Below, one piece after another: positions 16,846 to 17,769 of a DNA stretch of 64,000 bases (positions within the stretch are counted from its first letter, which is position 1; every line of letters begins with the position of its first letter). The stretch is from Thermus caldilimi. Its GTDB lineage: Bacteria > Deinococcota > Deinococci > Deinococcales > Thermaceae. Where the stretch lies: positions 1,970,796 to 2,034,795 of the forward strand of contig NZ_CP038452.1 of NCBI RefSeq assembly GCF_004684245.1, read 5' to 3'. Position numbers and translations under genes: made by a program. The notes beneath the pieces are model-generated. The model was not told the DNA's origin. It did no database searches and saw nothing but the letters and a program-made list of their open reading frames with translations.

Positions 16846-17637
16846 ATGGTTCGCCGCCTCCTTTCCCTCTCCCGGCCCCTCTACTGGCTTTACGAAAAGC
16901 GCCTCCTTAAGGAGGTGAAAGGAGGCCCAGTTCCCAGGCACCTGGGCCTTATCCTGGACGGGAACCGCCGCTACGCCAGGGCCTTGGGGTTATCCCCCGT
17001 GAAGGGGCACGAGTTCGGGGTCCAGAAGGCCTACGAGGTCCTGGAATGGTGCCTGGAGATGGGCATTAAAACCGTGACGGTCTGGGTCTTCTCCACGGAC
17101 AACTTCAGGCGCCCCCCCGAGGAGGTGGAAACCCTCATGCGCCTCTTCGTGCGGGAGGCGGAAAGGATGGCAGATGACCACCGCATCCTGGAGCACCAGG
17201 TGAGGGTGCGTTTCATCGGGCGGCGGGAGGGATTCTCCGAGGAGGTACTGAGGGCCCTGGAGCGCCTCGAGGCCAAGACCCAGCACCACCAGGGCATGGT
17301 GTTGAACATCGCCTTGGGCTACGGGGGGCGGGAGGAGATCGTGGACGCGGTGAAAAGGCTCCTTCTGGAGGCTTGGGAAAGAGGCCTTTCCCCTAAGGAA
17401 CTTGCGGAGAGGCTTACCCCTGAGGACATCGCCCGCCACCTCTACACCGCAGGCCTTCCCGACCCCGACTTCATCATCCGCACCTCGGGGGAGATAAGGC
17501 TTTCCGGCTTCCTCCTTTGGCAGTCGGCCTACTCCGAGTTCTACTTCGCCGACGTGCTCTGGCCGGAGTTCCGGAAGATCGACTTCTTGAGGGCTCTCAG
17601 GAGCTACCAGGCCCGCGAAAGGCGGTTTGGGCGTTGA
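16846..17637 (+). CDS. uppS: Cis-prenyltransferase (isoprenyl transferase)
   Basis: Elongates prenyl diphosphates in cis for lipid carriers. LILDGNRRYARALG (about 33-46) holds the catalytic Asp; VWVFSTDNFRRPPEEV, DFIIRTSGEIRLSGFLLWQ and YSEFYF are all present in order. The DGNRRYA form differs from the common DGNGRWA. The product is presumably an undecaprenyl-type chain, but length is not readable. Its stop codon lies inside the -35 of the next promoter. Confidence 0.93.
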   Translation: MVRRLLSLSRPLYWLYEKRLLKEVKGGPVPRHLGLILDGNRRYARALGLSPVKGHEFGVQKAYEVLEWCLEMGIKTVTVWVFSTDNFRRPPEEVETLMRLFVREAERMADDHRILEHQVRVRFIGRREGFSEEVLRALERLEAKTQHHQGMVLNIALGYGGREEIVDAVKRLLLEAWERGLSPKELAERLTPEDIARHLYTAGLPDPDFIIRTSGEIRLSGFLLWQSAYSEFYFADVLWPEFRKIDFLRALRSYQARERRFGR

Positions 17638-17662
17638 CAAAAAGGAGGGTTTCGTATACCCT
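17634..17662 (+). promoter_or_regulatory. Promoter of the lysine cluster
   Basis: TTGACA (17634-17639), 17 nt, TACCCT (17657-17662). The -35 contains the uppS stop codon. Confidence 0.75.
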
Positions 17663-17672
17663 TACAGGCAAG

Positions 17673-17717
17673 ATGCTGGCCCTTGAGAAAAAACTCGGCC
17701 GCCGGGGGGTAGGGTAG
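17673..17717 (+). CDS. Lysine leader peptide
   Basis: A 14-residue reading frame, MLALEKKLGRRGVG, between the promoter and an intrinsic terminator ahead of homocitrate synthase. It has two adjacent AAA Lys codons, rare in this GC-rich genome where AAG dominates, and two Arg codons. GC-rich sequence after the Lys codons (17702-17708) can pair with CCCCCGG at 17736-17742 and would disrupt the terminator arm. I recall a leader-peptide attenuation mechanism reported for the T. thermophilus lysine cluster, which this fits. AGG-rich sequence 15-20 nt upstream is a poor ribosome site, so initiation is uncertain. Confidence 0.75.
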   Translation: MLALEKKLGRRGVG

Positions 17718-17738
17718 CCCCAGAGGGTTCCTTATCCC

Positions 17739-17769
17739 CCGGCCCGAGTTCGGGCCGGTTTTCTTTTTG
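17739..17769 (+). terminator. Attenuator terminator before homocitrate synthase
   Basis: CCGGCCCGA (17739-17747) pairs with TCGGGCCGG (17750-17758), then TTTTCTTTTT. It precedes the ribosome site GGGGAGGAG of the next gene by a few bases, so it acts inside the leader. Confidence 0.85.

Follow-up and report, generated by a model that had tools for sequence, protein, structure and literature searches.

A probable lysine leader-peptide attenuator upstream of the homocitrate synthase gene of Thermus caldilimi and its relatives

Locus, leader reading frame and promoter

Does the short reading frame with two adjacent lysine codons that lies just ahead of the homocitrate synthase gene (hcs) of Thermus caldilimi control its operon by attenuation and, if so, which amino acid does it sense? 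The DNA analyzed here, a stretch of 64,000 nucleotides that we call the window, is part of a 2.45-Mb single-contig genome, and the hcs it carries has 98% identity with its counterpart in Thermus tenuipuniceus (the nearest named relative) and 97% with the one in T. scotoductus. Promoter, leader ORF, terminator and hcs follow one another in that order along the locus (Table 1), and a Shine-Dalgarno-like GGGGAGGAG is present between the terminator and hcs. The operon makes lysine, the candidate sensed amino acid (homocitrate synthase, homoaconitase, LysW and LysX are all present), and the argC-type reductase that follows is, from its position, presumably LysY. The locus has the features of an attenuator, namely tandem codons for the product amino acid, a terminator before the first gene, a competing antiterminator and an operon that makes lysine.

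Table 1. Positions in the window of the leader elements and of the neighboring genes.
Feature	Positions	Strand	Remarks
uppS-like gene, upstream of the leader	ends 17637	+	NCBIfam
Promoter	17634–17662	+	TTGACA 17634–17639, 17-nt spacer, TACCCT 17657–17662; read directly; conserved geometry
Leader ORF MLALEKKLGRRGVG	17673–17717	+	ATG at 17673; 14 codons + stop TAG (17715–17717); read from the sequence
Tandem Lys codons AAA AAA, proposed stall site	17688–17693	+	invariant alignment columns; AAA is the minor Lys codon
Antiterminator 5′ arm, within the leader ORF	17701–17714	+	14-bp duplex with 17730–17743
Antiterminator 3′ arm	17730–17743	+	17739–17743 common to the terminator left arm
Intrinsic terminator	17739–17768	+	8-bp all-GC stem 17739–17746/17751–17758 + TTTTCTTTTT, T tract 17759–17768; stem base invariant in 37 sequences
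Homocitrate synthase (hcs)	17781–18911	+	NCBIfam TIGR02146, above cut-off; opens the alpha-aminoadipate (lysine) operon
Homoaconitase large (19354) and small (20612) subunits, LysW (21425), LysX (21634)	19354–22530	+	rest of the operon as checked
argC-type reductase	22527–23474	+	NCBIfam TIGR01850

The lysine cluster also contains some less expected reading frames, all on the + strand. A 155-aa ORF (18896–19363) with no NCBIfam or Pfam match lies between hcs and the gene for the homoaconitase large subunit; a 116-aa zinc-ribbon ORF (21081–21431) with a LysW-type domain, possibly a second LysW-like protein, lies directly before LysW; and genes of CopG type and with a PIN domain (23600–24228), likely a toxin–antitoxin pair, lie within the cluster and immediately precede an amino-acid kinase gene (24225).

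A preliminary description of this DNA had noted a 14-codon frame with AAA AAA between a promoter and a terminator ahead of hcs, and both the sequence and the comparison of 53 upstream regions given below confirm it. The description had also called the lysine codons rare, which is fair: 59 ORF proxies of the window use AAA 126 times and AAG 496 times, T. scotoductus hcs has 0 AAA and 18 AAG, and the leaders keep AAA although AAG is the usual lysine codon. Among the 47 tRNA genes of the genome there is one tRNA-Lys(TTT) and one tRNA-Lys(CTT), and AAA should be decoded by tRNA-Lys(TTT) only. The codons directly after AAA AAA in the window leader are CTC GGC CGC CGG. Judged from the window sequence alone such an arrangement is only moderately unlikely by chance, since 86 of 2000 dinucleotide shuffles also place an ORF with a lysine tandem before the terminator.

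The −35 box of the promoter overlaps the stop codon of the uppS-like gene (17635–17637), and 10 nt separate the −10 box from the leader ATG. A simple promoter scan of the window listed no site here because TACCCT fits only three of the six positions of the scan hexamer, so that the promoter call rests on conservation: a TTGAC[A/G]-(17–18)-TA...T promoter is present in 37 of the 39 related leader loci described below, with the start codon 7–10 nt past the −10 box (counted in locus L121 from a GTG and not from an upstream ATG), and the pattern went unmatched in L109, which has little upstream sequence, and in L134. Transcription usually starts 6–8 nt past a −10 box. Start sites deduced in this way from the −10 boxes would leave a 5′ UTR of about 1–5 nt across the loci. 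Leaderless expression from a −10 box next to the ORF is common in Deinococcus-Thermus (PMC12340547), and the leader start codons, 7–10 nt past the −10 box, resemble the starts of those genes; the difference is that the present ORF, itself almost leaderless, would serve a proposed attenuator as its sensor, and searching the text of that paper gave no mention of leader peptides, attenuation or lysine.

Conservation of the lysine codons across the order

Of the 111 genomes of the order, searched at the protein level, 54 gave a strong hcs match, and 53 upstream regions were examined (genome G064, in which the hcs match is incomplete, was left out). A short ATG frame with AAA AAA lies upstream of hcs in 39 of these 53 regions, against 1.5 expected from shuffles among the 41 regions with a terminator, a comparison to be read with the reservation that the sequences are related and not independent. 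The observation of the lysine tandem is made secure by this comparative evidence. The leader is present in 27 of 27 regions of the Thermus family (26 from Thermus and one from a sister genus), in 10 of 11 of a second, Marinithermus/Oceanithermus-like family (the name is tentative), whose one missing locus, L117, is truncated at the edge of its contig, and in both regions of a third family. A leader of the Thermus type was found in 0 of 3 regions of a fourth family and 0 of 10 of a fifth, Trueperaceae-like one (again a tentative name). Altogether 14 of the 53 regions are without such a leader, one of them cut off by a contig end.

The 39 leader loci comprise 37 distinct sequences, in all of which the six A residues of AAA AAA are invariant and the frame of the ORF is kept; the extraction pattern demanded an ATG and an in-frame AAAAAA, so this invariance arises partly by selection and 53 is the fair denominator. 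The other codons vary, as in MARFAKKPGAGGAT, MTRFAKKTGAGGAA, MKYREAKKLYAGGAG, MAWLAKKLSAGG and MFSAKKPSSEDASA, and T. parvatiensis has ATGCTGGCCCGTGTGAAAAAACTC..., MLARVKKLGRRGVG. Tandems of some other amino acids also exceed the shuffles in the order set (glycine 37 vs 8.8, arginine 30 vs 8.6, alanine 19 vs 5.5, leucine 9 vs 4.5 and tyrosine 8 vs 0.2). Those of glycine, arginine and alanine fall in the same conserved leader ORF, and that of tyrosine was traced only to an overlapping frame, LGVDKKEGFVYPYRQDAGP. This overlapping frame also contains two adjacent lysines, and it was rejected as a leader since it starts upstream of the −35 box and occurs in only 5 of the 53 regions.

Competing RNA structures and the proposed switch

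It had been suggested in the preliminary description that the GC-rich sequence after the lysine codons pairs with the left arm of the terminator, and this holds, with an overlap at 17739–17743 and with arms that co-vary. The unmasked fold of the window leader is the antiterminator form, whose core is the pairing of 17701–17714 with 17730–17743; the 103-nt leader fold has a z of −5.6 (0 of 200 shuffles were as stable), and none of 300 shuffled ORF tails matched the stability of the 14-bp duplex. The same duplex, of the ORF tail with the 17 nt that end in the terminator CCGGC, was evaluated in 12 representatives. For 10 of them, dinucleotide shuffling of the tail equalled the native stability in no more than 4 of 300 trials, and pairing was weaker in both third-family sequences, where 26/300 and 11/300 shuffles were as good. 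Shuffling the 12 nt before CCGGC instead was less discriminating because CCGGC is kept fixed (1/300 in one case, 11–19 in six and 85–171 in five). When arms were swapped over eight lineages, 2 of the 40,320 pairings, the native one included, reached the native sum; three of the eight (L116, L121 and L122) were best in neither their row nor their column. RNAalifold places the terminator and the upper antiterminator of the 37 sequences in one consensus, with two-sided changes at 11 of 19 pairs. A MAFFT alignment of the 37 leaders has a gap in the 3′ arm that splits the antiterminator helix, so covariation was judged by arm swapping and RNAalifold and not from a hand-drawn count of pairs.

These structures, together with the lysine codons, make the locus very probably a ribosome-mediated transcription attenuator of the lysine operon that senses charged tRNA-Lys. 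The start site, the stalling and the cellular response to lysine that we propose are as follows. RNA polymerase would start about 3–5 nt upstream of the leader ATG, as placed from the −10 box, and a ribosome would load at the almost leaderless 5′ end. With ample charged tRNA-Lys the ribosome would pass AAA AAA and cover 17701–17714, no antiterminator would form, the hairpin 17739–17758 would fold and transcription would stop before hcs. With tRNA-Lys uncharged the ribosome would wait with a lysine codon in its A site and its leading edge at about 17700–17703, just before the antiterminator arm or a little inside it; the freed arm could then capture 17730–17743 and with it the bottom of the terminator stem, and transcription would run on into hcs.

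To model the switch, the ribosome was advanced through the leader one codon at a time, with the RNA masked as far as 15 nt downstream of the first P-site nucleotide. The folding is an equilibrium one and ignores the order of transcription, which produces the antiterminator before the terminator. When the first AAA occupies the A site, the leading edge reaches 17700, immediately ahead of the antiterminator arm. For the window leader the probability of the terminator was 0.01 when codon 4 occupied the A site, 0.44 at GAG, 0.56 and 0.63 (37 °C) or 0.52 and 0.68 (65 °C) at the two lysine codons, and 1.00 and 0.99 one codon past the lysines, so the shift toward the terminator starts one codon before them, at GAG. 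Over 36 loci (the terminator finder missed one of the 37 sequences) the mean was 0.57 at the lysine codons and 1.00 one codon later, compared with 0.85 at the lysine codons when the middle was shuffled; at 37 °C, at most 2 of 40 shuffles were as low in only 10 of the 36. For five Oceanithermus-like sequences the model has no switch, the terminator prevailing at every ribosome position close to the lysines. A measure of arm sequestration on truncated RNA was set aside, as it could not tell native sequences from shuffled ones (0.52 vs 0.59). Folding around a stalled ribosome, the check that the preliminary description had proposed, agrees only in part with a switch point at the lysine codons: the balance at that point is only about 50:50, and the five Oceanithermus-like leaders do not follow it. 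The main claim of that description, lysine-responsive leader-peptide attenuation before hcs, gains support from the conserved lysine codons and the covarying antiterminator, which are sequence-based as are the parts themselves, and from the modelled switch point at lysine.

Could the leader sense arginine beside or instead of lysine, through the codons CGC CGG, as had also been suggested? Thermus leaders do have two arginines after the two lysines, and some of them have a further arginine codon two codons before the lysines, where T. caldilimi has leucine (codon 4). The arginine pair is confined to Thermus and its sister genus and is present in 0 of the 12 loci elsewhere. The mask model gives a terminator probability of 0.98–1.00 when CGC or CGG occupies the A site, so a shortage of arginine would close and not open the operon; the arginine codons also coincide with the antiterminator arm, which is an RNA constraint. 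Arginine sensing is therefore very unlikely, and we have dropped it.

A conserved, structured 5′ leader with alternative hairpins before a lysine operon is also what a lysine-binding riboswitch or a T-box would present, with the short ORF incidental, and the lysine riboswitch (RF00168) would do an equal job, lysine-dependent termination before lysine genes. The transcribed leader is only about 100 nt long to the end of the T tract, and its invariant part is the lysine codons and not a separate aptamer. Rfam at its gathering threshold gives only tRNAs in the window, with no match to the T-box families, and RF00168 had no match at the search threshold in the window or the 111 genomes of the order; the control search matched E. 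coli, B. subtilis, T. maritima and L. lactis. We regard control by such an RNA as extremely improbable. The terminator might instead simply belong to uppS, whose end at 17637 is only some 100 nt away from the stem, and the conserved ORF would then have no regulatory role. Against this, uppS and the terminator are separated by a promoter whose spacing is conserved; promoter, lysine codons and terminator are kept together in other families, and the antiterminator arms co-vary, all of which makes this reading hard to credit. The preferred reading remains attenuation by translation of the lysine codons.

The mechanism is a textbook one, and leader-peptide attenuation of the T. thermophilus hcs lysine cluster was reportedly described in 2005 by Tsubouchi et al. 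(J Biol Chem). That leader reportedly shares with the present one, from another Thermus species, the genus, the first gene, the tandem lysine codons and the terminator before hcs. The enterobacterial trp, his, leu and thr attenuators (the accessible part of PMC9413887 describes his attenuation in general terms) likewise have a short ORF with tandem codons for the product amino acid, an antiterminator and a terminator that share an arm, and a starved ribosome that opens the operon. The Thermus leader differs in that its antiterminator arm is part of the ORF, at a distance of 7 nt from the lysine codons, and its ORF begins almost at the 5′ end of the RNA; a protector hairpin like that of E. coli trp is not evident in the Thermus leader folds, which when unmasked give the antiterminator. 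Added by the comparison here are the conservation in two further families, the near-leaderless start, the absence of the riboswitch and the Anaerolineae modules described below. It brings evolution into the case, in that the only fixed inner codons are the two lysines and the RNA arms co-vary.

Lysine leaders in other lineages

In four loci of the Trueperaceae-like family (L123, L124, L126 and L131) the roughly 170 nt that precede hcs contain a lysine-containing ORF whose start codon is 7 nt past a −10 box. In L124 and L126 the left arm of a long hairpin lies inside this ORF, so a stalled ribosome would directly block the hairpin; the folds of L123 and L131 are weaker.

A first scan of 52 hcs regions outside Deinococcota gave no excess of lysine tandems (7, vs 8, 8 and 8 for arginine, alanine and glycine). 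After the sequences had been read, the definition of a tandem was changed and shuffles were added, and with this changed definition the 40 regions with a terminator gave 11 lysine tandems against 1.4 expected; glycine (13 vs 6.0) and threonine (5 vs 1.6) also exceed expectation in that set. In the Anaerolineae (Chloroflexota), 37 of 110 hcs regions have a lysine-tandem ORF that ends shortly before a terminator, against 2.8 by shuffling (L180, L181 and 35 loci between L218 and L282, all upstream of hcs). These 110 regions, 60 of them with a terminator, belong to a larger set of 141 match places, to which 140 of the 297 searched genomes contributed; they share some genomes with the 52-region set, so the counts are not added. 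None of the other amino acids comes near the lysine excess there (glutamate 8 vs 3.8, the rest at most about twice expectation). The Anaerolineae leaders differ in sequence from the Thermus leader, often reading KSKK or KKSKK, and the folding model favors a switch at the lysine codons for only some of the Chloroflexota loci (in 11 of the 37, at most 2 of 40 shuffles were as low). No report of lysine leaders in Chloroflexota was found in the literature searched, from which most subscription journals were excluded, and the accessible parts of PMC3356886, PMC7461572, PMC4833913, PMC12340547 and PMC9413887 contain none.

The locus itself is a well-supported lysine leader-peptide attenuator, and the wider distribution is the part worth following. 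Counterparts of the Thermus leader precede the same gene, hcs, in a second phylum, and we lean somewhat toward the view that leader attenuation of hcs by lysine is old and widespread, present in Thermaceae, Marinithermus-like bacteria, some Trueperaceae (as the lysine-ORF hairpin) and Anaerolineae, and that it replaces the lysine riboswitch. This suggests how lysine may be sensed where that riboswitch is not found. Testable cases are offered by attenuation at high temperature on a nearly leaderless RNA and by tandem attenuators: in 5 of the 110 Anaerolineae regions (L224, L230, L233, L248 and L273), two different lysine leaders, each with its own terminator, lie in series within 450 nt upstream of hcs.
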